A stretch of DNA of 37,125 bases from a virus: positions 1-37,125 of IMG/VR virus record IMGVR_UViG_3300037246_000553; one strand, 5' to 3'. Numbering within the stretch: the stretch's first letter is position 1; each line of letters begins with the position of its first letter. This document shows, in pieces, positions 1 to 37,125 of this stretch. The notes beneath the pieces are model-generated. The model searched no databases and had not been told where the DNA came from. It was given only the letters and a program-made list of their open reading frames with translations. A program made the translations under genes and the position numbers.

Positions 1-88
1 AGGATCTTTAGTCAGATCGCTGAGAGCGTTCAAGGCTTCTAACTCGGATCTTAGTTCGCATAGCCACTACTTACAACCGAACGAATAA

Positions 89-130
89 GGAGCTCCGGAT
101 CTCGACAGGTTCGGAGCTCCCGTCTTATTT
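89..130 (+). terminator. Rho-independent terminator after pilin gene (left copy)
   Basis: The nine-base stem GGAGCTCCG (89-97) pairs with CGGAGCTCC (112-120) across a 14-base loop and is followed by CGTCTTATTT. It lies about 47 bases after the pilin stop codon. It probably ends the rightward accessory operon before the late promoter. Confidence 0.8.
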
Positions 131-296
131 ATCTCCTTCTCTTCCGCTCTTCCCGGCCGTCGATCGGGATCCCCGAGCGGCCGAATCAGGCGAAGGACCC
201 GGCTCCGCCGGCCGGAATAGGGGAGCCTGTAAATCGAGGGTACTCACTTACCATAAATACGCTCAAAGTCGCTTAGATCGACGCTGTGGCAGTCTC

Positions 297-347
297 GTCC
301 GACGTCCCACTGCAGTGGATTACCGCTTCCCGGTATGACGGTATAAC
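297..347. promoter_or_regulatory. Palindromic operator region upstream of late promoter
   Basis: A GTCCGAC heptamer (297-303) is followed by the perfect 12-bp palindrome CCACTGCAGTGG (307-318). A weak promoter-like pair follows: TTACCG at 320-325 and TATAAC at 342-347, with a 16-base spacer. The heptamer next to CACTGCAGTG also occurs at 25799-25819 in the leftward control region. A protein that acts at both places is likely, but its identity is not visible. A second copy lies at 35872-35922. Confidence 0.5.
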
Positions 348-372
348 GGGGAGTGTAAAAATGGGATCCCGA

Positions 373-401
373 TTGACCAGTCTCAAAAATGAGACTAGGA
401 T
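373..401 (+). promoter_or_regulatory. Late-operon promoter with an operator filling its spacer
   Basis: The -35 box TTGACC (373-378) and -10 box TAGGAT (396-401) are separated by exactly 17 bases (379-395). The spacer is taken up by the palindrome GTCTCAAAAATGAGAC (380-395). That palindrome and its flanks match the iteron at 28452-28467 in the replication gene, in reverse orientation, over about 21 bases. The layout implies that a protein bound to the palindrome blocks or remodels RNA polymerase binding. The next coding start is at 518 and the plus-strand genes run to 23942. Confidence 0.7.
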
Positions 402-402
402 A

Positions 403-464
403 AGGAGGAGCTCCTCCTCCAGTGGAGCTCGGGAGACGCCGAGACGGGAACGCCGCCGGCGTCT
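403..464 (+). other. Leader hairpins of the late operon
   Basis: Directly after the late -10 box lies the perfect 16-bp palindrome AGGAGGAGCTCCTCCT (403-418). It looks like a ribosome binding site folded against its complement, but no start codon follows at proper spacing. A second hairpin pairs AGACGCCG (434-441) with CGGCGTCT (457-464). No U-run follows, so a plain terminator is unlikely. A 5' stabilising structure or a processing site is possible. The region also contains two extra GAGAC half-sites, at 434-446. Confidence 0.35.
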
Positions 465-517
465 TCTACTTTGAAAGGGAGCCGAGATATGATAGGATCG
501 AGAACGGAGGAGGAGCG

Positions 518-1768
518 ATGGCAAAGAAAGCCGAACGACTTCGGATCGATTACTTACCTCTTACGGATCTCCTCACTCGCAAGTCTCCGGATAACGCTAA
601 ACTTCACGATCTAATTCAGATGGCCTACTCCTTCGGGAAGTTCGGCTTCGTCGCTCCGGCTGGGATCGATGAGACGACCGGGCTTCTCCTCTGGGGGCAC
701 GGCAGGCTCGACGAGCTCTACGAGCTCAAGGAGAGCGGAGCGAAGCCTCCCGGACGGATCGAGATTGAGGGAGACGAGTGGCTCGTCCCGACGGTCCGGG
801 GGATCCGGCTCGGGAAGAAGCTCGGACCGCTTTACAGGATGGCCGATAATGCGATCGGCGAAGGTCTCTGGGATAAGGACAAGCTCGCTCAGACGATTAT
901 CGCCGCCGTCGGAGATCAACTCGAGGAGCTTCAAGGGACCGGGATCGAACCGGATTACGCTTCCGCATTAATCGAGGCCTATCAAAAGAATGGGAAGGAA
1001 GACAAGCCGCCGCCGAATACCGAAGACGTTAAGCGTCTCCGTCGAAAGTGGAAGACGAAGCTCGGCGACTTTTACGATATCGGATCTCATCGGCTTATCG
1101 TCGGAGACGCTACGGACGGAGAGATAGTTACGAGGCTCTTCGCTGGCGAGAAGGCTTCCGCTGTTCTTACGGATCCGCCTTACGGAATGATGAAGGACGG
1201 GATCCTGAATGACGATCCCCGAGGGCTCTCCTTGCTATACGGAGAGGCGATCGCTAACCTTCCGATGGATAAGGGGGTCGTCGTCGCCTTCCAGTCGCCG
1301 AGGCTCAATCTCCTTACGATCTGGCTCGATCGAATGACAGAGAACAAGTACAAGCTTGAGCGACTTCTCTGGGTCTACTTTACGAATACGACGAACTCGT
1401 TCCCTTGGCGAGGATGGATCCTTACGGGACAGGCGATCGTTATCTCATCGAAGGGACGTCCTCGATGGCCAAGGAAGAAGCTCGACTATCAGCACGATAC
1501 CTATACTCGGATCGGGAAGGAGGACGAGGAGCTCGACGGGAAACATCCAACGGTTAAGCCGGCTTGGATCTTCTCGGATCTCCTCAAGCGACTTCCTTAC
1601 GGGATCGTCTATGATCCCTTCTTAGGATCCGGGACAACGATGGCCGTCGCCGAGGGGATGGGGAGGGCTTGCTACGGACTCGAGATCGATCCGGGATACG
1701 CCGCCGTTACGCTCGAGCGAATGTCGAAGATCGGCGTTAAGATAAGTAAGAAGGAGAAGACAAAATGA
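518..1768 (+). CDS. ParB-like nuclease/DNA adenine or cytosine-N4 methyltransferase fusion
   Basis: This 416-residue protein is predicted to methylate phage DNA at an exocyclic amino group. The N-terminal 110 residues are ParB-like, with the GHGRLDEL motif. The C-terminal half has TDPPYG (motif IV) before DPFLGSGTT (motif I, the S-adenosylmethionine-binding loop), the order of beta-class N6-adenine/N4-cytosine methyltransferases. DPPY, rather than SPPY, favours N6-adenine. The start at 518 follows GGAGGAGGAGCG, a very strong ribosome binding site; an upstream in-frame GTG/ATG-less extension is less credible. It is the first gene after the late promoter. Fusions of ParB and methyltransferase domains are frequent in phages. 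The target site is unknown, although the excess of GATC/GGATCC in this genome makes such a site an attractive candidate. Confidence 0.85.
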   Translation: MAKKAERLRIDYLPLTDLLTRKSPDNAKLHDLIQMAYSFGKFGFVAPAGIDETTGLLLWGHGRLDELYELKESGAKPPGRIEIEGDEWLVPTVRGIRLGKKLGPLYRMADNAIGEGLWDKDKLAQTIIAAVGDQLEELQGTGIEPDYASALIEAYQKNGKEDKPPPNTEDVKRLRRKWKTKLGDFYDIGSHRLIVGDATDGEIVTRLFAGEKASAVLTDPPYGMMKDGILNDDPRGLSLLYGEAIANLPMDKGVVVAFQSPRLNLLTIWLDRMTENKYKLERLLWVYFTNTTNSFPWRGWILTGQAIVISSKGRPRWPRKKLDYQHDTYTRIGKEDEELDGKHPTVKPAWIFSDLLKRLPYGIVYDPFLGSGTTMAVAEGMGRACYGLEIDPGYAAVTLERMSKIGVKISKKEKTK

Positions 1769-22456: not shown

Positions 22457-23299
22457 ATGCAGGGCTTACACTGGTGGGATTTCTCAAGGTGGAACGGAAG
22501 AATAAACGGAGCGGCGATAAAGGCTCGAGGGGTCGACGGGATAATGTCTCGATCGACGATCGGGACCTCCGGGGTCCGGGATATACAATACGAAAATAAC
22601 TCCCGCCAAGCCGACGAGAACGGGCTTCTCTTCGGAGCTTACGGAGTTAATTGGCCTATCAATCGTAATCCCGAACTTGAGGCCGAGGTCTTCGTCGAAC
22701 AAGCTTACGATCCGAGGCTCCCGAAGCTCCCGGATGTACTCGCCGGCGACTTCGAGCTCGGAGCGAGAACGCATAAGGCCGGCCATCACAAGATCTCGGG
22801 GGAGGAGCTCGTCGAGCAAGCCGTCCGATACATGCGGAAACTCAGAGAACTTCTTCCGGAGATCCTTCTCATCCTTTATACGGGGCATTGGTTCTGGAAC
22901 GACGAGAAGCTCCTCCCGCACGTGGGGAAGGGGGAAGATGAGTTCCCCGGATGGTTCGCTTCTTATCCTATCGATCCGAAGCAAATTAAATACTTGCCGC
23001 CTCGATATTCGGCCGACGTCTTAGATCCGAGGGAAGTCAATCCGGATCTCGAAGTTAAAATTCCGATACCTTGGACAAAGGCGAATACAATGGCTTGGCA
23101 GTGGTCGTCTAAGGGCAGGGGGAAGGTCGACGGCTATCAAGAGTCGACCTTTATCGATCGGAATGTTCTCTTCGCTCCGATCGGGCCGCCGCCGCCGAAC
23201 GGAGGGCCTACTCCCTCAGAGCGGATCCGGGAAGCCGGAGCTATAATCGATGAGCAGACCGCCGAGCTCGATCGAATAGCCAATGAGCTCGAGAGGTAA
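22457..23299 (+). CDS. GH25 lysozyme (endolysin)
   Basis: This 280-residue enzyme is predicted to hydrolyse the peptidoglycan N-acetylmuramic acid to N-acetylglucosamine bond. LHWWDFSRWNGRI places the first acidic residue (D8) as in GH25 proteins, and LAGDFELGA supplies D98 and E100 of the catalytic D-x-E. ILYTGHWFWN and MAWQWSSKGR are further family features. The C-terminal 35 residues are helical and charged. There is no signal peptide, so release depends on a holin. AAGGAGGAGAT precedes the ATG. It stands before the two holin candidates. Confidence 0.88.
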   Translation: MQGLHWWDFSRWNGRINGAAIKARGVDGIMSRSTIGTSGVRDIQYENNSRQADENGLLFGAYGVNWPINRNPELEAEVFVEQAYDPRLPKLPDVLAGDFELGARTHKAGHHKISGEELVEQAVRYMRKLRELLPEILLILYTGHWFWNDEKLLPHVGKGEDEFPGWFASYPIDPKQIKYLPPRYSADVLDPREVNPDLEVKIPIPWTKANTMAWQWSSKGRGKVDGYQESTFIDRNVLFAPIGPPPPNGGPTPSERIREAGAIIDEQTAELDRIANELER

Positions 23300-29538: not shown

Positions 29539-30081
29539 ATGAAGGATAATAATTACCCCACGAAAGACGATCTACGCAACTCCGATATATCTGCTATCAA
29601 TGCAATGATAAAGCCTTCTGAAGATCCCGCCGACGCCGGAGCTCCTCGAGAGTTTCCTCCGGAGCCGGCTTATAAGACCGGGATTAAGGTCCGGGTCGTC
29701 CGGATCTCCGATGGTCTTCGTAAAGATCTCGTAGGTAAAGAAGGAGAGATCGGAGAGCAGATCGCCAAGCCGTTCTTCGGCTCTCGGGTCTATCGGGTCA
29801 TCTTTACGAACGGCTACTCCTCGATTGTCTTCCACGACGAGCTCGAGCTCATCCCGGTCTTCGAGATCGAGGTTACTCAATTTCTCGGGACCGTAAAGAT
29901 TGAAGTCTCAGGGATCGAAGAAGACGGCTTCGACTATTGTCTTCTCGATGAGTTCGGGAACGGGATCGGCGGTCAGATGCACTATTCGACTTCCGATAAC
30001 GCTATTCATGCCGCTCAGACGGAGGCGAGGAGATATCTCGCTCGGACCTTCTCAGAGAGACGGAAGGAACTCGAAAGCTAA
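29539..30081 (+). CDS. Hypothetical early protein (180 aa)
   Basis: After a 45-residue low-complexity start (DPADAGAPREFPPEPAYKTG), the middle has a beta-barrel-like pattern (VRVVRISDGLRKDLVGKEGE, then YRVIFTNGYSSIVFHDELEL) that resembles a KOW/SH3-like fold. The second half (FEIEVTQFLGTVKIEVSGIE) is again beta then helix. AAGGAGAAAAGCAA precedes the ATG. It is the first rightward gene after the control region. No firm family. Confidence 0.6.
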   Translation: MKDNNYPTKDDLRNSDISAINAMIKPSEDPADAGAPREFPPEPAYKTGIKVRVVRISDGLRKDLVGKEGEIGEQIAKPFFGSRVYRVIFTNGYSSIVFHDELELIPVFEIEVTQFLGTVKIEVSGIEEDGFDYCLLDEFGNGIGGQMHYSTSDNAIHAAQTEARRYLARTFSERRKELES

Positions 30082-30171
30082 TTGCCGGACTTTCACCTTC
30101 CGGGCTTGAGCTCTACTGTGAAGGCTCGAGCTCGGAGCGAGGTATGCCGGCCTCTACAAGGAGAAAAGCTA

Positions 30172-30366
30172 ATGACACATTACGGACTAGATTCGGATCT
30201 AAGGATCTCCTATCTATTGAAGGACTTAAAGACTGGAGAGATTCTAGACATGCGGTTAATGTCTCCATCGGAGGCGGAGGAAACCAATCGCCAAGCCGTC
30301 GAATATAACGACGATAATCCGAACGCCGATAACATTCGTTGGATAAAAGATCCGGCCGGACCTTAA
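30172..30366 (+). CDS. Hypothetical protein (64 aa)
   Basis: It begins MTHYGLDSDLRISYLLKDLK, an acidic alpha/beta sequence. The ribosome binding site AAGGAGAAAAGCTA is nearly identical to those of the genes at 29539 and 30378, suggesting high, matched expression. The 90 bases before it (30082-30171) show nothing coding. No family recognised. Confidence 0.6.
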   Translation: MTHYGLDSDLRISYLLKDLKTGEILDMRLMSPSEAEETNRQAVEYNDDNPNADNIRWIKDPAGP

Positions 30367-30377
30367 GGAGAAAAGCT

Positions 30378-30596
30378 ATGAGCCATCCGAGATATTACGA
30401 CGACGGACGACTTGCGACGACGATTTTTGGATCGAAGATCCTATACGACGCCGAGGGCCGTCCACATCTTGTCGGAGGGGAAGCTCGAGCTCTCCTCGAA
30501 TCGATAGCCTTCCAGATCGGGAAAGATGAAGGTCTCTCCCGAGCCGAGGCTCTCCGGGAAGCGAAGCGACGCTCCGACGAAGGAAAATTCGAATGA
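30378..30596 (+). CDS. Hypothetical protein (72 aa)
   Basis: It begins MSHPRYYDDGRLATTIFGSK and ends with a charged helix (SRAEALREAKRRSDEG). The ATG at 30378 has the same AAGGAGAAAAGCT leader as neighbouring genes. Its TGA overlaps the next ATG. No family recognised. Confidence 0.6.
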   Translation: MSHPRYYDDGRLATTIFGSKILYDAEGRPHLVGGEARALLESIAFQIGKDEGLSRAEALREAKRRSDEGKFE

Positions 30597-30697
30597 AGAA
30601 AAAATATCCAGCTCGTAGGGAATATGTCTTCCTCTATGTTTTCGTTCCTATAACGATAGGGATAATTGCCAGTATCTTATATGAGCTTTTAAGATGA
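30593..30697 (+). CDS. Tiny membrane protein (34 aa)
   Basis: It begins MKKKYPARREYVFLYVFVPI, a positive N terminus followed by one hydrophobic span (FLYVFVPITIGIIASILYEL). Both ends overlap neighbours (ATGA at each side), so it is translated by coupling. The positive-inside rule predicts a cytoplasmic N terminus. Function unknown. Confidence 0.6.
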   Translation: MKKKYPARREYVFLYVFVPITIGIIASILYELLR

Positions 30698-31068
30698 GCA
30701 AGCTAATCTATCCTGTCTTCGGCCATCTAAAGAAGAAGGCCGGGACGACTCTTATTCACGCTACAAGCGACGAGGTCCGGACCTTATGTGGTCGGAATTG
30801 CGAAGAGTATTACGGAGACGACGAGCTCGGGATCTCCGATATCGAATGTAAGAATTGTCGGAAGCTTCTCCCTCGAGGATCCTTCGTCGAGACCGAGAAG
30901 GATTGTCCTAAGTGCGGGAAGCCGACGCTCGAGATCTCGAGATATAAAAAGTGGGGGAAGCCGCCGGTCCCGGCTCGTTCCTTCATTCATAAGAAGGAGC
31001 TCCGGCAGGGTCCCATCCCGCATTATCTGATAACCGAATCTTGTCTCGTTAAAGGAGAGTTCGAATGA
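30694..31068 (+). CDS. Protein with two zinc-binding knuckle pairs (124 aa)
   Basis: IECKNCRKLLPRGSF and KDCPKCGKPTLEISRY give two C-x2-C knuckles that could share one zinc, and LCGRNC adds two more Cys. It starts MSKLIYPVFGHLKKKAGTTL. Similar proteins with a TLCGR-type motif occur in actinophages and other phages with unknown role. Coupled to both neighbours by ATGA overlaps. Confidence 0.6.
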   Translation: MSKLIYPVFGHLKKKAGTTLIHATSDEVRTLCGRNCEEYYGDDELGISDIECKNCRKLLPRGSFVETEKDCPKCGKPTLEISRYKKWGKPPVPARSFIHKKELRQGPIPHYLITESCLVKGEFE

Positions 31069-31550
31069 AAAAAATACTTGCTCTAGGTCTCTTGATCGTG
31101 TTCTTCATGCTACCTTCTCCCGCTCCCGTTCTATGTGCCACTTGTTGCCAAGGAGTAACATGGATCCGAGGCGGAGATTGTAATAATTATTGGCATAAAT
31201 TCTCCGCTCCATCCTATTGTCGAGTCGCAAAGTCGATCGGTGACGGGACATGGCCTTGGGGGGATAAGACTCGAGTTGAATTACCGAAGGTGACTATCTA
31301 TTTTGATCCTAGTGGCTTCTGTCAGAGTTGGGGAACGGGCAATCACACGGTCATCAAGCCAAGTAATTGCGGCACTAATTCCGGGTCGTCGTCTCCAAGG
31401 TCCGGAAGCTCTTCGAAACCTAAGAGCCCGATGGATACATATATATGGACAGAATCCCAACTGATGGGGATCGATATTTTGATCCGCATAATTAACGATC
31501 CGACGATCCCGGATAACATCGGTGAAATTTGGGCCGCTCAATACCCATAG
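31065..31550 (+). CDS. Secreted Cys-rich protein (161 aa)
   Basis: A clear signal peptide, MKKILALGLLIVFFMLPSPA, is followed by PVLCA and a mature part with many Cys (TCCQGV, GGDCNNYW, YCRVA, GFCQSW, NCGTN), so it is probably disulphide-bonded outside the cell. A Ser/Pro-rich linker (residues about 107-122) leads to a short helical C terminus. The base style is more AT-rich than its left neighbours. It may modify the host surface, for example to exclude other phages. It is not a clear lipoprotein, since the region before C24 does not match a lipobox well. Confidence 0.6.
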   Translation: MKKILALGLLIVFFMLPSPAPVLCATCCQGVTWIRGGDCNNYWHKFSAPSYCRVAKSIGDGTWPWGDKTRVELPKVTIYFDPSGFCQSWGTGNHTVIKPSNCGTNSGSSSPRSGSSSKPKSPMDTYIWTESQLMGIDILIRIINDPTIPDNIGEIWAAQYP

Positions 31551-31575
31551 AAGGAGAGTTCGGAGGAGGGGAAAC

Positions 31576-31995
31576 ATGCCAGCAATAGGATTTAAGCGAG
31601 AACTCAAAGACGATATTTATTGGGGGATAAAGAGACAGACCATCCGACGAGCTAGAAAAGTGCGACGAATTAAAGTCGGTGATAGTCTCAATCTTTATAT
31701 CGGAATGCGAACCTCAAAATGCAAGCTAGTTCGCAAGGCGATTTGTACCGCATTAAAATCGATAACCATATTTTGGGATGGTGTAGTAGTCCTCGAAGGA
31801 AAGAAGCTAACCAATAAAGAGATTAAAATACTTGCGCTCGCCGATGGGTTTCTTAGTACGAGGGACTTCATAGCTTTCTTTAAAAATAACTATGCACATT
31901 TTGCAGATTGCCAGAACGGTTTCGAGGGCGAGCTAATCGAATGGGAGTTATTTAAATCATTGCGATCAAAGGAGAAGCTGAATGATCCGAATTAG
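31576..31995 (+). CDS. ASCH-domain-like protein (139 aa)
   Basis: The chosen ATG follows CGGAGGAGGGGAAAC. The sequence MPAIGFKRELKDDIYWGIKR, then TIRRARKVRRIKVGDSLNLY and a later ADGF/FIAFF pattern fit the ASCH fold, a small RNA- or nucleotide-binding domain related to PUA. Phage ASCH proteins are thought to act on RNA or modified nucleosides, but the specific activity here is unknown. The AT-rich base style suggests acquisition together with the secreted protein gene. Confidence 0.65.
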   Translation: MPAIGFKRELKDDIYWGIKRQTIRRARKVRRIKVGDSLNLYIGMRTSKCKLVRKAICTALKSITIFWDGVVVLEGKKLTNKEIKILALADGFLSTRDFIAFFKNNYAHFADCQNGFEGELIEWELFKSLRSKEKLNDPN

Positions 31996-32215
31996 ACTCG
32001 GGGCTCGCTACGCCGGGGAGCTCGAGAAGTACGTCGACCGATACGATGCGATCTCGCTCTTGGATAAGGGAGAGATGAGCGGAGTTATCCTCGAGCTCTC
32101 GGGAGAACTCACGCTCTCAAATCTCGAGGTCTTCCTCGATCAAGTTAAATTACTTATCTCTAACCAGCTATACGAGCGGATCGTCGAGGAGGTAAGGCGT
32201 TGGATAGCAGGATGA
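31982..32215 (+). CDS. Hypothetical protein (77 aa)
   Basis: It begins MIRIRLGARYAGELEKYVDR and is alpha/beta with Leu-rich helices. It overlaps the ASCH gene by 14 bases and returns to the GATC/CTCGAG-rich style of the core phage genome. AAAGGAGAAGCTGA lies in front of the ATG. No family recognised. Confidence 0.6.
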   Translation: MIRIRLGARYAGELEKYVDRYDAISLLDKGEMSGVILELSGELTLSNLEVFLDQVKLLISNQLYERIVEEVRRWIAG

Positions 32216-32427
32216 TAATGATGAAGCTGACAAATAATTATACTGAAGTCGTTGGCGTAACTCATAGAAATGGCGAAGAGGAGTGCCACGATTTGTTGCC
32301 GCAACTAACCCAACTCGAAGCCGACAATGCCGCACTCCAGAAGCAGGTGAAGGAGTTGCGGGGTTTGTTGGTAAGAATTACAAAGGCTCACGGTCTTTCA
32401 GATCCTGGGACTGACTTGGGCAATTAG
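32212..32427 (+). CDS. Small coiled-coil protein (71 aa)
   Basis: Starting at the ATGA overlap (32212) it begins MIMMKLTNNYTEVVGVTHRN. The second half is a Leu-heptad helix (LLPQLTQLEADNAALQKQVK, then ELRGLLVRI), likely a dimerising coiled coil. ATG codons at 32218 and 32221 are alternative starts. The base style lacks the GATC-rich signature, so it looks acquired. Function unknown. Confidence 0.55.
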   Translation: MIMMKLTNNYTEVVGVTHRNGEEECHDLLPQLTQLEADNAALQKQVKELRGLLVRITKAHGLSDPGTDLGN

Positions 32428-32448
32428 CGTAAGGATCAGGAGGAAATT

Positions 32449-32631
32449 ATGATAGACCTACTTTTGATAGGAGTCAATATCGGATGCACCATTTCAACCG
32501 CCTACTATTTTTTGCCCCTACGTGGCAGTGACTCGCTCATGAAAACGGCCGTCAAGATCGGTCTGTGTTCAGCGATAGCACAACTCATAATGGGCATGTT
32601 CATAGGAATATTCCTTGGACCGTTGCTCTAA
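32449..32631 (+). CDS. Small two-span membrane protein (60 aa)
   Basis: Two hydrophobic segments (LLLIGVNIGCTISTAYYFLP and CSAIAQLIMGMFIGIFLGPL) flank a charged loop (RGSDSLMKTAVK). CAGGAGGAAATT is the ribosome binding site. The hairpin topology resembles phage membrane toxins or exclusion proteins, but nothing specific is recognised. Foreign-looking base style. Confidence 0.6.
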   Translation: MIDLLLIGVNIGCTISTAYYFLPLRGSDSLMKTAVKIGLCSAIAQLIMGMFIGIFLGPLL

Positions 32632-32650
32632 GGACCGTAGCAGGAGGCGA

Positions 32651-32899
32651 ATGATGAAGGCACTAGGCCATATCGGGATGTCACCGGCCGATAGGGTAGC
32701 GGCCGATCGTAAGGCGGGTCGCCGGGGCGGGGTCAATAATGCTAGGTTAACCCGTAAATTGACGGACGACCAAGTGCGGGTAATCCGTGCTAGGTGGGCC
32801 GCCGGCGAGGGCTGTAGGTCAATCGCAGGGGATTACCCCGTCAGTCCAGGTGCGATTTATTCGGTCGGCCTTCGCAGGACTTATAAAGGGGTTGAGTGA
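32651..32899 (+). CDS. Helix-turn-helix protein (82 aa)
   Basis: LTDDQVRVIRARWAAGEGCR then SIAGDYPVSPGAIYSVGLRR is a typical small HTH (resolvase/sigma-like), of the kind that often accompanies HNH or is found alone in phages. It begins at ATG 32651 (or 32654) after CAGGAGGCGA. The N-terminal half is basic and may bind DNA. A regulatory role is inferred. Confidence 0.65.
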   Translation: MMKALGHIGMSPADRVAADRKAGRRGGVNNARLTRKLTDDQVRVIRARWAAGEGCRSIAGDYPVSPGAIYSVGLRRTYKGVE

Positions 32900-32909
32900 C
32901 GAGATAGCT

Positions 32910-32937
32910 GGATGCGTTCGGAGGGCCGAGGTATAAT
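32910..32937 (+). promoter_or_regulatory. Possible promoter before annealing gene
   Basis: A perfect -10 TATAAT lies at 32932-32937, but the hexamer 17 bases upstream (TGGATG) is a poor -35. A small hairpin, GCGAGG with CCTCGC, follows near 32944-32966. It may start a transcript for the annealing gene at 32991 with activator help. Confidence 0.4.
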
Positions 32938-32990
32938 ACAGGAGCGAGGGCAGGCCGGCTCCTCGCAGTAAAAAACAAGGAGAAGAGCCA

Positions 32991-33782
32991 ATGAAGCCAT
33001 TTCCTATTATGACGCTTACCGGAATGACGACCGAGCAGGTCGTCGAGCTATTTAAAGAGAAGCTCGAGCCGGAAGCATACTCCGAAGTCGCTCACATGAG
33101 CTACCTAACCGAGATCGATCCCGCTTACCTCCGGGAGGCTCTTACTACAGCCTTCGGGTTATGCGGATTCGGATGGTTCTATGAATACGAGACTGAGGAT
33201 CTCGACATTCGTCCGGCCGCCAAGGAGGGCCGCTGGATAGCGACAATGAAGAAATTCGCCCTACACTTCCGATATGTCGAGGGAGATCCTTCGAACGGAG
33301 GGGTCGAGGTGAAGATCTCCGATCCAATCCTGTCCGCCGGATCCTCGACGAATAACGATCCCGGTAACGCTATCAAGGGAGCGATTACGAACTCGCTCTC
33401 GAAGGCCGGGGCGATGCTTCTCTGGCAATTAGATGTCTACAAGGGGAAGCTAACTCATAAGACCGCCGGACTTCGAACCGAGATAAAGAAGAAGGGGAAC
33501 GGGAACGATGCGAAGAAGAAGGATTATGAAGCCTCTCTCCTTCAGATACGATCCAATGCGATAACCTCTCCGGAGGAATTCGGATCCCGAGAGTTCTGGA
33601 AGATCACTAATTCGCTCGGTGTCGATGGACCGACCGGGACCGCTATTCTCAAGGAGTGCTCGGACTCTTGGGCCGATGCCGCCGTCTCGGTTATCGATAG
33701 CTACGGAGGGATCGAGATCGAGAAGAATGAGAACGAGAAGAGACAGAACGAGAGGAGGGTCGTCGATGAGGTGCCGTTCTAA
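32991..33782 (+). CDS. Rad52/Sak-like single-strand annealing protein
   Basis: This 263-residue protein has the Rad52-superfamily pattern: YLTEIDPAYLREALTTAFGL, GFGWFYEYE, and DPGNAIKGAITNSLSKAGAM ahead of LLWQLDVYKG. Such proteins form rings that anneal complementary strands during phage recombination. The C-terminal 45 residues are disordered and charged and end VVDEVPF, similar to the acidic DDDIPF-type tip with which single-strand-binding proteins attract partners. CAAGGAGAAGAGCCA precedes the ATG. It probably cooperates with the RecU-like and MmcB-like enzymes encoded on the other strand. Confidence 0.78.
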   Translation: MKPFPIMTLTGMTTEQVVELFKEKLEPEAYSEVAHMSYLTEIDPAYLREALTTAFGLCGFGWFYEYETEDLDIRPAAKEGRWIATMKKFALHFRYVEGDPSNGGVEVKISDPILSAGSSTNNDPGNAIKGAITNSLSKAGAMLLWQLDVYKGKLTHKTAGLRTEIKKKGNGNDAKKKDYEASLLQIRSNAITSPEEFGSREFWKITNSLGVDGPTGTAILKECSDSWADAAVSVIDSYGGIEIEKNENEKRQNERRVVDEVPF

Positions 33783-33809
33783 AGATCTACGGATCCGGGG
33801 AAGGCTCCG

Positions 33810-34160
33810 ATGAGTAACATCAATCGCTTCTTAAAGGAACCGAGGGAAACCCTCGCCCTAAAGCTTGCTACGATCGAGGAGGTCCTAATGGAACCATTTG
33901 CAGGACACGACCTTACGCCTCGTCAATCCGAGATCGCCTACTTGCTTGCTCGAGGTTTTACGACGTCGGAAATTGCAAAGAATCTTGATATCGCTAATTC
34001 GACCGTAAAGACAACGATCGGGAGGATAGGAAAGAAGATAAAGCTCCGGCCTCGAGAGTTCCCTCGGGCGATGGCTCGATCGATCGAAGCCGTCCTCGAG
34101 ACTAGGCTCTCCCGACCGATTATTGAGATCGTGAAGTCGCCTCGTCCGGAGGAGTGGTAG
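33810..34160 (+). CDS. LuxR/GerE-type transcriptional regulator (116 aa)
   Basis: DLTPRQSEIAYLLARGFTTS then EIAKNLDIANSTVKTTIGRI forms a complete LuxR-type HTH (residues about 34-78). The sensing domain of typical LuxR regulators is absent; only a short helical N terminus is present. Such single-domain proteins are found in phages as activators of late or early genes. It may bind one of the palindromes described at 307-318 or 25717-25843. That is an inference. GGGGAAGGCTCCG precedes ATG. Confidence 0.75.
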   Translation: MSNINRFLKEPRETLALKLATIEEVLMEPFAGHDLTPRQSEIAYLLARGFTTSEIAKNLDIANSTVKTTIGRIGKKIKLRPREFPRAMARSIEAVLETRLSRPIIEIVKSPRPEEW

Positions 34161-34162
34161 CG

Positions 34163-34417
34163 ATGTATAAAGGAGACCTCTACGATATCAGGCATAGGTT
34201 TAAAATCGAGACGAGGAACGGTCTACGACAGTCGAAAATAGTTTTCGCTCTCTGCGAGGCGGGGATCCCCTTTATCGAATTCGTCGAGATCGAGACGGAG
34301 GATGAAGCCGATTATATCGCCGAGTACCTCGAGGGCCGATGGATTGTCCCGACAGACCTCGACGACGAGATGATTGAGCTCGCTCGAGAGCTCTATAAGG
34401 AGTCGGTCAATGTCTAA
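34163..34417 (+). CDS. Small acidic hypothetical protein (84 aa)
   Basis: The ATG at 34163 follows GGAGGAGTGGTAGCG; an in-frame start nine bases earlier is less well spaced. It begins MYKGDLYDIRHRFKIETRNG and ends in acidic helices (DLDDEMIELARELYKESVNV). The end overlaps the next gene. No family recognised. Confidence 0.6.
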   Translation: MYKGDLYDIRHRFKIETRNGLRQSKIVFALCEAGIPFIEFVEIETEDEADYIAEYLEGRWIVPTDLDDEMIELARELYKESVNV

Positions 34418-34871
34418 GATATACAGAGGAGTTCGGATCTCCGGCTCCGGAATGGCGGAGATTAAAGTCGTTCAACTTATACGCTTCAAGAACAGATCGA
34501 ATCTCGTTCCGTCCGGAGCTCCGCTCCGACATTGTATCCTTCACTCTCCGACCGGGATGGAGTGGGGATACGGCGGATCCGGGCCGGCCGATCTCGCTCT
34601 CTCGATTCTCTGCGATTACTTCGAGGAGAAGCCGTCGCCGGCGGATCTCCGGACCGGGAACTTCTCGGCCTTCCCCTTCTACCAAGATTTTAAGTGGTCG
34701 TATATCGCTTCGATCCCGGAGAATGAGTCTTGGGAGATAACGGAAGCCGAGATCGATCAATGGATAACGGTCTACGACGCTCGGAGGGCGATCGTAAAAT
34801 TCGCTGAGGCCGGTCGGGTAGAGTGGAGAGGAGAGAAGATAGCGAGCGGAAGACAAGGAAGCTCAAAATGA
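34410..34871 (+). CDS. DUF6166-like protein (153 aa)
   Basis: The start at 34410 (MSKIYRGVRISGSGMAEIKV) overlaps the previous stop. The core HCILHSPTGMEWGYGGSGPA then DLALSILCDY is the signature of the DUF6166 family, common in phages and mobile elements, of unknown function. A C-terminal helical extension follows. The TGA overlaps the ATG of the next membrane protein. Confidence 0.65.
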   Translation: MSKIYRGVRISGSGMAEIKVVQLIRFKNRSNLVPSGAPLRHCILHSPTGMEWGYGGSGPADLALSILCDYFEEKPSPADLRTGNFSAFPFYQDFKWSYIASIPENESWEITEAEIDQWITVYDARRAIVKFAEAGRVEWRGEKIASGRQGSSK

Positions 34872-35164
34872 AGTACCTAACATTCCTCGCCCTAACTCTC
34901 ACCGACTGGGTTTTGACTAAGCTCGCTCTGTTTGCTGGGATGACAGAAGGTAACCCACTTGTGTCATTGGTGGGCGGTATTGACAATGCTCTTATAACCA
35001 AGATTGTGGCTTGGGCGGCTATCGTGGTACTTGTACCAGCACTCAACAACTGCTGGCCGAAGAAGGGCGATCAGGTTCTTACCGGGGCGATTTTGCTTTA
35101 TGCGGGTCTCGTGCTATGGAATGCCTGTATGATCGCATGGCCGATTTTAACTATACCAATGTAG
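34868..35164 (+). CDS. DUF5658-like membrane protein (98 aa)
   Basis: It begins MKYLTFLALTLTDWVLTKLA and has three hydrophobic segments. The pattern DWVLTKLAL...GMTEGNPLV resembles DUF5658-type membrane proteins. ATGA overlaps the DUF6166 gene. From this gene on, the DNA lacks the GATC/GGATCC style of the core genome. It stands first in the three-gene cassette that ends with the pilin and could be a membrane partner. Confidence 0.6.
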   Translation: MKYLTFLALTLTDWVLTKLALFAGMTEGNPLVSLVGGIDNALITKIVAWAAIVVLVPALNNCWPKKGDQVLTGAILLYAGLVLWNACMIAWPILTIPM

Positions 35165-35173
35165 GAGGATATT

Positions 35174-35395
35174 ATGGGTGGTTGGATACCGAAGAATTGC
35201 CCTCAGTGCAGGTCCAAAAAGATTAGGAAGTCACCAACAGCCGGAACAGCGGTTGGATCACTCTTTGATCTTGTTGCGGGAGTTGCAACGCTAGGAATGT
35301 ATCTTGCTCTGCGTGGGAAACGAACGACAACCTGGAATTACGAATGTAAGAAGTGCGGATTTGAGTGGCAAGCGCAGTTTGAGGACTTTATCTAA
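35174..35395 (+). CDS. Membrane-spanning zinc-ribbon protein (73 aa)
   Basis: An N-terminal CPQC knuckle and a C-terminal CKKC knuckle flank a hydrophobic stretch (AVGSLFDLVAGVATLGMYLA). The two ends could meet to form one zinc ribbon across a membrane loop. TAGGAGGATATT is the ribosome binding site. It lies between the DUF5658-like and pilin genes. Function unknown. Confidence 0.6.
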   Translation: MGGWIPKNCPQCRSKKIRKSPTAGTAVGSLFDLVAGVATLGMYLALRGKRTTTWNYECKKCGFEWQAQFEDFI

Positions 35396-35464
35396 ATGAG
35401 CCGGGAATACAAGCTCAGTGGCCCGTCACGTGCGGTTGCATGGATTTGGCCGAGCAGAGAGTAG
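35396..35464 (+). CDS. Possible leader peptide before pilin (22 aa)
   Basis: ATG at 35396 opens a 22-codon frame starting MSREYKLSGPSRAVAWIWPS. The TAG stop at 35462-35464 forms part of the pilin ribosome binding site TAGGAGG. It directly follows the previous stop. There is no separate ribosome binding site, so translation would depend on re-initiation. It could couple pilin translation or be a chance frame. Confidence 0.3.
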   Translation: MSREYKLSGPSRAVAWIWPSRE

Positions 35465-35473
35465 GAGGATAAC

Positions 35474-35617
35474 ATGTTTCAAAAAGGACAAAGCTTTCTC
35501 GAATATGCGTTAATCTTGATTCTTGTGGCAGTCATTGTAGTCGTCATTCTGACTCTACTCGGACCAGAGCTCGTTAGGATCTTTAGTCAGATCGCTGAGA
35601 GCGTTCAAGGCTTCTAA
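35474..35617 (+). CDS. Flp/type IVb pilin-like protein (47 aa)
   Basis: The protein starts MFQKGQSFLEYALILILVAV. A five-residue leader ends in Gly, and mature numbering gives E5 and Y6 (GQSFLEY), the Flp pilin prepilin-peptidase signature. A 22-residue hydrophobic helix follows, ending LTLLGPELVRIFSQI. Length (47) and the short tail match Flp pilins of Tad systems, many of which have the GxxxxEYxLIxxLxA pattern. GTAGGAGGATAAC precedes ATG. It is the last gene before the terminator at 35664. No prepilin peptidase, ATPase or secretin is encoded, so host machinery would be needed. Confidence 0.82.
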   Translation: MFQKGQSFLEYALILILVAVIVVVILTLLGPELVRIFSQIAESVQGF

Positions 35618-35663
35618 CTCGGATCTTAGTTCGCATAGCCACTACTTACAACCGAACGAATAA

Positions 35664-35706
35664 GGAGCTCCGGATCTCGACAGGTTCGGAGCTCCCGTCT
35701 TTTTTA
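35664..35706 (+). terminator. Rho-independent terminator after pilin gene (right copy)
   Basis: The stem is the same as at 89-120, here followed by CGTCTTTTTTA, a canonical U-tract. It lies 47 bases after the pilin stop codon. The copies differ only after the stem, so this may be the functional form and the left copy a variant or a read error. Confidence 0.85.
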
Positions 35707-35947
35707 TTACTCTCTCTTCCGCTCTTCCCGGCCGTCGATCGGGATCCCCGAGCGGCCGAATCAGGCGAAGGACCCGGCTCCGCCGGCCGGAATAGGGGAG
35801 CCTGTAAATCGAGGGTACTCACTTACCATAAATACGCTCAAAGTCGCTTAGATCGACGCTGTGGCAGTCTCGTCCGACGTCCCACTGCAGTGGATTACCG
35901 CTTCCCGGTATGACGGTATAACGGGGAGTGTAAAAATGGGATCCCGA

Positions 35948-35976
35948 TTGACCAGTCTCAAAAATGAGACTAGGAT
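35948..35976 (+). promoter_or_regulatory. Late promoter and operator, right copy
   Basis: This is the exact repeat of the promoter at 373-401, with the palindromic operator at 35955-35970. In a circular or permuted genome the two are the same site. Confidence 0.65.
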
Positions 35977-36092
35977 AAGGAGGAGCTCCTCCTCCAGTGG
36001 AGCTCGGGAGACGCCGAGACGGGAACGCCGCCGGCGTCTTCTACTTTGAAAGGGAGCCGAGATATGATAGGATCGAGAACGGAGGAGGAGCG

Positions 36093-37125
36093 ATGGCAAA
36101 GAAAGCCGAACGACTTCGGATCGATTACTTACCTCTTACGGATCTCCTCACTCGCAAGTCTCCGGATAACGCTAAACTTCACGATCTAATTCAGATGGCC
36201 TACTCCTTCGGGAAGTTCGGCTTCGTCGCTCCGGCTGGGATCGATGAGACGACCGGGCTTCTCCTCTGGGGGCACGGCAGGCTCGACGAGCTCTACGAGC
36301 TCAAGGAGAGCGGAGCGAAGCCTCCCGGACGGATCGAGATTGAGGGAGACGAGTGGCTCGTCCCGACGGTCCGGGGGATCCGGCTCGGGAAGAAGCTCGG
36401 ACCGCTTTACAGGATGGCCGATAATGCGATCGGCGAAGGTCTCTGGGATAAGGACAAGCTCGCTCAGACGATTATCGCCGCCGTCGGAGATCAACTCGAG
36501 GAGCTTCAAGGGACCGGGATCGAACCGGATTACGCTTCCGCATTAATCGAGGCCTATCAAAAGAATGGGAAGGAAGACAAGCCGCCGCCGAATACCGAAG
36601 ACGTTAAGCGTCTCCGTCGAAAGTGGAAGACGAAGCTCGGCGACTTTTACGATATCGGATCTCATCGGCTTATCGTCGGAGACGCTACGGACGGAGAGAT
36701 AGTTACGAGGCTCTTCGCTGGCGAGAAGGCTTCCGCTGTTCTTACGGATCCGCCTTACGGAATGATGAAGGACGGGATCCTGAATGACGATCCCCGAGGG
36801 CTCTCCTTGCTATACGGAGAGGCGATCGCTAACCTTCCGATGGATAAGGGGGTCGTCGTCGCCTTCCAGTCGCCGAGGCTCAATCTCCTTACGATCTGGC
36901 TCGATCGAATGACAGAGAACAAGTACAAGCTTGAGCGACTTCTCTGGGTCTACTTTACGAATACGACGAACTCGTTCCCTTGGCGAGGATGGATCCTTAC
37001 GGGACAGGCGATCGTTATCTCATCGAAGGGACGTCCTCGATGGCCAAGGAAGAAGCTCGACTATCAGCACGATACCTATACTCGGATCGGGAAGGAGGAC
37101 GAGGAGCTCGACGGGAAACATCCGA
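36093..37125 (+). CDS. ParB-methyltransferase, partial right copy cut by the window end
   Basis: This is the first 344 codons of the gene at 518-1768, repeated because of the terminal redundancy. It includes the ParB-like domain and TDPPYG. It stops before the DPFLGSGTT motif because the sequence ends, not because the gene is broken. Confidence 0.9.
   Translation, partial: MAKKAERLRIDYLPLTDLLTRKSPDNAKLHDLIQMAYSFGKFGFVAPAGIDETTGLLLWGHGRLDELYELKESGAKPPGRIEIEGDEWLVPTVRGIRLGKKLGPLYRMADNAIGEGLWDKDKLAQTIIAAVGDQLEELQGTGIEPDYASALIEAYQKNGKEDKPPPNTEDVKRLRRKWKTKLGDFYDIGSHRLIVGDATDGEIVTRLFAGEKASAVLTDPPYGMMKDGILNDDPRGLSLLYGEAIANLPMDKGVVVAFQSPRLNLLTIWLDRMTENKYKLERLLWVYFTNTTNSFPWRGWILTGQAIVISSKGRPRWPRKKLDYQHDTYTRIGKEDEELDGKHP

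Follow-up and report, generated by a model that had tools for sequence, protein, structure and literature searches.

Tad pili are attachment organelles and also serve phages as receptors, the latter as described in one study (PMC11067988). A virus that encodes a pilin of its own, with the residues required for pilus assembly retained, raises the question of whether it shuts out competing viruses by placing this subunit in the filament of the host. Here, we address this question for a short gene near the end of a 37,125-nucleotide stretch of viral DNA, hereafter called the window. We consider in turn the identity of the gene product, the genome that carries it, its probable origin, its occurrence in other viral records and the roles that it may play.

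The pilin gene and the genome that carries it

The predicted product of the gene (MFQKGQSFLEYALILILVAVIVVVILTLLGPELVRIFSQIAESVQGF; Table 1) displays the layout of a prepilin, with the leader MFQKG, a mature part that starts with Q-S-F-L-E5-Y6, a single extended helix of hydrophobic character and a few polar residues at the end. The traits of Flp/Tad pilins are present in the form of a glycine at the end of the leader, a glutamate at mature position 5 and a tyrosine at mature position 6 (MFQKG / QSFLEY). Cleavage is presumably after Gly5, as deduced from the type IV prepilin rule. The mature pilin would consist of 42 residues and be small and single-helical, without a globular domain, and the AF2 model, built from an alignment of 71 rows, contains one helix that spans residues 8-45 (mean pLDDT 91.9). 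The pilin gene is the last one ahead of a terminator hairpin (35664-35695) with 14 pairs and a T6 run, for which the folding energy is -24.7 kcal/mol (z -4.75) and to which none of 200 shuffles was equal in stability.

Table 1. Coordinates of the features discussed in the text, in the window unless a locus is named.
Feature	Position	Strand	Basis or context
Terminase large subunit and portal, tailed-phage markers	3020..6842	+	phrog_2 E 3.9e-19, phrog_2662 E 7e-66
DUF5658 membrane protein, 98 aa, foreign codon usage	34868..35164	+	PF18902 E 3.7e-8, above cut-off
Zinc-ribbon-like small protein, 73 aa, foreign codon usage	35174..35395	+	Weak zinc-ribbon matches below cut-off
22-codon mini-ORF between zinc-ribbon gene and pilin, start overlapping TAA region	35396..35464	+	Sequence
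Ribosome-binding site AGGAGG, 5 nt 5' of ATG	35463..35468	+	Sequence reading
Flp/Tad prepilin gene, 47 aa	35474..35617	+	Intact ORF, PF04964, PilA in PDB, profile score
Leader peptide MFQKG	35474..35488	+	Sequence; cleavage after Gly5 expected
Mature pilin, one predicted helix, E5-Y6 = E10-Y11 of ORF	35489..35614	+	AF2
Intrinsic terminator, 14-pair stem and T run	35664..35705	+	Sequence and folding energy
Terminal overlap, equal to window 1-1550 with 6 mismatches; begins within pilin gene	35576..37125	.	End comparison
Pilin-membrane protein fusions	L011:616 (=L014, L016), L012:1-549, L018:5532-6158, L020:10384-10989		Near terminase or tail genes

A profile search against Flp pilin families, as proposed in the preliminary description of this DNA, gave a match to PF04964 (E 2.1e-5, 24.7 bits) that falls below the curated Pfam cut-off of 32.2 bits. 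The same cut-off is also missed by five of eight cellular Chloroflexota pilins and passed by L030, L042 and L043; we treat it as a reporting threshold and not as a defining trait, and it is a strict one for the pilins of this phylum. In the PDB, phmmer matched the window protein to the PilA Tad pilins (E 0.002), and the profile of the pilin family retrieved two PilA sequences only (E 1e-9) at E <= 0.1. A model of cellular pilins from which the window protein was left out assigned it 66.6 bits, to be compared with 15.5 bits for the best of 5000 composition-preserving shuffles of it and 6.4 bits for the next best of the 556 frames in the window; the 41 rows of this model were recruited with the window pilin or with patterns derived from it and are thus not an independent sample. 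Since the shuffles control for composition, composition is not the cause of the high score. The lone helix gave no match in Foldseek, an outcome expected for a single helix, and the pilin had no match in PHROGs at E <= 0.1. Judged from its sequence, the reading frame is a complete Tad/Flp (type IVc) major-type prepilin. The preliminary description had recognized a Flp-type pilin with a leader glycine, E5-Y6 and one helix, located at the end of an operon with a strong ribosome-binding site and a terminator, and these features are all borne out by the intact frame, the family and PDB matches, the profile score relative to shuffles, the helix model, the AGGAGG motif and the hairpin.

The gene had also been described as phage-encoded, which agrees with the presence in the window of a terminase, a portal, a prohead protease and a GH25 endolysin. 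Because the ends of the window overlap by 1550 bp, we conclude that the genome is circular or permuted, with a length of about 35,575 bp, and the final 42 nucleotides of the pilin gene are found again at window positions 1-42. Five of the six mismatches in the overlap are clustered at overlap positions 127-137 (window 127-137 / 35702-35712), in and directly past the T run of the terminator, and represent either strain variation or assembly error.

Neither another Tad component (motor, platform, peptidase, secretin) nor an integrase was recognized among the window proteins scanned, and no tRNA was found in the window. The pilin thus has no recognized Tad machine encoded with it, unlike its nearest cellular relative, and this difference concerns gene context, not the protein as such. 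The likely lysis genes are located away from the pilin, at 22457 (GH25) and 23622 (a three-helix protein). A megablast search with window positions 30000-37125 against phages gave no match, and scans for relatives of the recombination-type protein at 32991 and of the methylase found none. A comparison of 18 window proteins with the other loci yielded matches for three of them only, with 77 for the pilin, 3 for the methylase and a single one, in L037, for the GerE protein.

Probable acquisition of the gene and its Chloroflexota affinity

The synonymous codon choice of the pilin gene differs from that in the rest of the phage (-0.097 versus 0.152 expected), with only 0.15% of 2000 simulations equally low, and for the DUF5658 and zinc-ribbon-like genes no simulation of 2000 was equally low. 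This deviating codon choice suggests that the three genes form an acquired segment. The mini-ORF ahead of the pilin gene could possibly provide translational coupling with it. A source for DUF5658 was identified in none of 400 Chloroflexota genomes, in a search that had no positive control. Foreign codon usage was also observed for the genes at 31065, 31573, 32200, 32449 and 32615, but not for the one at 31982, and the region 31065-32899 is possibly a second acquired segment. A gene with a GerE/LuxR-type helix-turn-helix domain (PF00196, E 1.7e-11) is located at 33810-34160; regulators of the LuxR type are also present near Chloroflexota pilins in L165 (6707-7477) and L037, and in L022 a LuxR-like frame continues into the pilin, both of which may be coincidences.

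The survey of related phages for the same gene, proposed in the preliminary description, did not recover it. A search with the portal profile kept 80 loci, of which six (L003-L008) were tested first and then 48 of the other 74, and PF04964 was detected in none of these 54 portal-related records, many of which are fragments. Among 38 near relatives, 12 cover 5.3 kb or more on the upstream side of the portal, which is where the pilin is situated in the window, and a pilin-like frame was present in none of the 12. No close relative carries the pilin gene, and we therefore regard it as an accessory gene; taken together, the foreign codon usage and the absence from relatives make it look like an acquired one. 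In a tblastn search, the pilin matched no phage or plasmid record even at E 10, which we do not count as absence since low-complexity masking probably hides a hydrophobic query of this kind. Masking may also be the reason why none of the 228 pattern matches in another scan was confirmed.

The sequence of the window pilin is of the Chloroflexota type. With the pilin as query, HMMER retrieved matches at E <= 1e-7 in 139 of 400 Chloroflexota genomes and in none of 396 Actinomycetota genomes, and the pattern GQxF(VLI)EYALI recovered nine stretches from a collection of species genomes, seven from Chloroflexota and two from Actinobacteria. In a tree of 71 rows, in which there are few columns and the bootstrap values are unsettled, the window pilin is placed inside a group of Chloroflexota and viral pilins (97/88) and adjoins the pilin of genome G256 (96/70). 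The underlying alignment comprised the window pilin and 70 of 75 pilin rows, the five omitted ones being L015 and four near-duplicates from cells; L019 was not caught by the pattern used to pick rows and is not among the 75. The branch leading to the window pilin is long (1.19 versus a median of 0.17), which could reflect relaxed constraint.

The pilin of G256, the nearest cellular match, heads a tad operon, with genes downstream for CpaB/RcpC, a TadZ-type ATPase with receiver and ParA parts, a T2SSE motor and a pair of T2SSF platform proteins. Separate from this operon, five pilin matches are crowded within 2.3 kb on a single contig of the same genome (G256:C1:1715-3996), of which three frames are flagged with an internal stop and another has a TAA. 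Long C-terminal extensions were observed in the pilins of three Chloroflexota loci (L024:324-1046, L028:3327-4703, L029:1-451) and one viral contig (L019:2491).

A near-identical gene in a host chromosome, which the preliminary description had suggested as a point of comparison, was not found, the best identities being 57-60%, but the search did point to a host lineage, which is probably Chloroflexota. This assignment is deduced from the pilin itself and would be misleading if the gene had passed from one host to another. The portal adds weak host evidence, with matches at E <= 1e-20 in 4 of 400 Chloroflexota genomes at 23-36% identity, in a comparison without a control phylum. To our knowledge, the phages of the Chloroflexota are almost unstudied.

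Pilin-like genes and fusions in other viral records

A degenerate DNA pattern applied to 2.9 million viral contigs identified 39 stretches, 34 of which have a pilin-like hydrophobic core upon translation; the remaining ones, without such a core, were set aside (L063, L065, L073, L075, L077). The pattern fixes G-Q and E-Y, and the conservation of these residues in the viral set is thus not independent evidence. A phrog_2-type terminase is present in 18 of the 34 records and a phrog_12 portal in five. The set includes identical sequences (L011=L014=L016; L062=L074) and three doubtful members, namely L015, in which PF04964 has no match at that position, L010, which resembles a host chromosome, and L019 with its long C-terminal extension. 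In two viral contigs, L064 (2581-3322) and L081 (7101-7862), the pilin is followed by a TadE-like gene (PF07811), which makes up a two-gene Tad minor module. Flp pilin genes have also been listed among those carried by prophages, in Vibrio harveyi (PMC12482185) as well as in Sinorhizobium meliloti (PMC12429752). Phage-borne Flp pilins are thus already in print, and the gene in the window adds one more.

In six records, representing four distinct proteins, a small membrane protein ends in the pilin at its C-terminus. By BLASTP, the membrane portions of these fusions show no detectable likeness to one another, the best cross-match being E 0.4. We read all four as having three helices in an N-out/C-in arrangement, two of them behind a signal peptide, a reading that relies on hand-placed loops and charges and in which the helices are resolved less cleanly by a hydropathy scan. 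Such an arrangement would place the linker ahead of the pilin in the cytoplasm, where the leader of a prepilin belongs. We refer to the fusions as holin-like, a label that is our own reading. In the tree, the fusion pilin of L018 clusters with one from a cell (100/89) and those of the other three cluster with one another in a different place (99/94), for which reason two or more origins of the fusions are probable. When further relatives of the L016 fusion were sought, only its three known records were retrieved. We found no report of pilin-membrane protein fusions in the open-access literature searched, and they may be new.

One broader interpretation, to which we assign a modest chance, is that phages repeatedly capture the Tad major pilin as a weapon against the Tad machine. 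The pilin would then be deployed either free, as in the window, to enter the host filament, or as the C-terminus of a three-helix holin-like fusion in which the loop charges position the leader in the cytoplasm and a prepilin peptidase could cleave it; such fusions would link membrane opening or exclusion to the Tad apparatus or to its peptidase.

Possible roles and comparison with known systems

What might a solitary pilin do for the phage? We prefer the explanation, although we rate it at somewhat below an even chance, that the phage pilin is processed by the host, enters the Tad pilus of the host and alters or blocks the filament, so that superinfection is excluded by pilin substitution. 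The pilin would be made during infection and inserted into the membrane, and the prepilin peptidase of the host would cut it after Gly5. It would then be passed on to the TadB/TadC platform and the TadA motor of the host, compete with the host pilin and join the pilus. The surface of the filament would thereby be changed or the filament stalled, and other phages as well as sister phages that use this pilus would be unable to attach. Beyond the presence of an intact Chloroflexota-type prepilin in a phage, we infer every step of this scheme.

Host machinery would be needed because no other Tad part was recognized in the phage proteins scanned. The Tad pilus of Caulobacter is held together by the Glu and Tyr residues at positions 5 and 6 of the mature pilin; assembly requires them, whereas expression and processing of the pilin do not (PMC11067988). 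Since both residues are kept in the window pilin, it should be capable of joining a filament, and incorporation is favored over a pure dead-end plug. Small phage proteins that disable type IV pili and thereby cause superinfection exclusion are described in two articles (PMC8764522, PMC11436027). It is because phages disable pili for this purpose and Tad pili are receptors that we prefer pilin substitution for exclusion. The identity of the pilin, its Chloroflexota type, the tad operon of its nearest cellular match, the recurrence of pilin-like genes in viral records, the foreign codon usage and the absence from relatives were also counted in its favor. Counted against it were the fusions in other phages, which hint at a role in the membrane or in lysis, the lack of a recognized integrase among the window proteins scanned, as exclusion is best known from temperate phages, the score below the Pfam cut-off, the long branch, and a host assignment that comes from the pilin itself, with little from the portal and no DUF5658 match in 400 Chloroflexota genomes.

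Alternatively, a phage pilin in the Tad pili of the host may change adhesion, biofilm formation or cell-cell contact and aid the spread of progeny without any exclusion. The intact assembly residues (PMC11067988) and the Chloroflexota type of the protein suit this explanation equally, and sequence alone cannot separate the two, but a lytic burst would give little time for such a payoff and we consider it unlikely. Next in probability, and likewise unlikely, is that the small hydrophobic helix acts in lysis as a holin-like protein or the partner of a holin. In favor of this, a pilin is fused in four distinct viral proteins to a small membrane protein that has several helices and a holin-like layout, and the phage contigs L064 and L081 contain a TadE-like gene along with the pilin. 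However, no family match stands behind the label of the fusions, the window pilin itself has no match to a holin family (PHROG at E <= 0.1, Pfam), the likely lysis genes of the window are found elsewhere, and the leader glycine, E5 and Y6 have been kept although they would be useless to a pore.

The foreign codon usage, the absence from relatives and the long branch could also mean that the pilin gene is a mere passenger, recently picked up from a host, without selected benefit and on its way out. We regard this as less probable again, since the frame, the ribosome-binding site, the leader, E5/Y6 and the terminator are all intact in spite of the long branch, and pilins recur in 34 viral records, 18 of them with a terminase. 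That host pilin DNA was joined to a phage contig during assembly, as a three-gene segment with foreign codon usage might suggest, is very improbable given that the segment lies inside the phage genome, that the stretch leading from the pilin-gene interior over the terminator into the methylase gene occurs at either end of the contig, the two copies of the overlap differing at 6 of 1550 positions, and that no tad genes adjoin it.

The closest counterparts of the window pilin are the Tad major pilins of the Chloroflexota (PF04964; G256), with which it has in common the leader glycine, Q1, E5, Y6, the helix and an LGP motif, at 57% identity. It differs from them in being phage-encoded without other recognized tad genes, at F3-L4 and in the C-terminal half, where PELVRIF replaces P-I-G-N-V-F. 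PilA of Caulobacter crescentus (8u1k, 8u2b) is likewise a single helix with E/Y at mature positions 5 and 6, but it is chromosomal, has a leader of 14 residues and is distant in sequence (E 0.002 one to one). PfsE of the Pseudomonas phage Pf4 and Aqs1 of DMS3 provide a precedent for phage proteins that disable the type IV pili of the host and exclude other phages; PfsE binds the platform protein PilC and is not described as a pilin in these accounts, so the likeness to the window pilin is one of description (PMC8764522, PMC11436027). The prophages of V. harveyi (PMC12482185) and S. meliloti (PMC12429752) carry a pilin of the Flp family, as does the window, but in proteobacterial hosts, and the articles list these pilins as virulence or accessory genes; here too, the comparison is by description. 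Finally, the fusions (L011=L014=L016, L012, L018, L020) contain a phage-borne pilin of the Chloroflexota type like that in the window, which stands alone, whereas theirs is placed behind a multi-helix membrane protein. With the pilin module recurring in many viral records, in part fused to membrane proteins, an answer to whether a virus can shut out others with a subunit of its own would apply widely.
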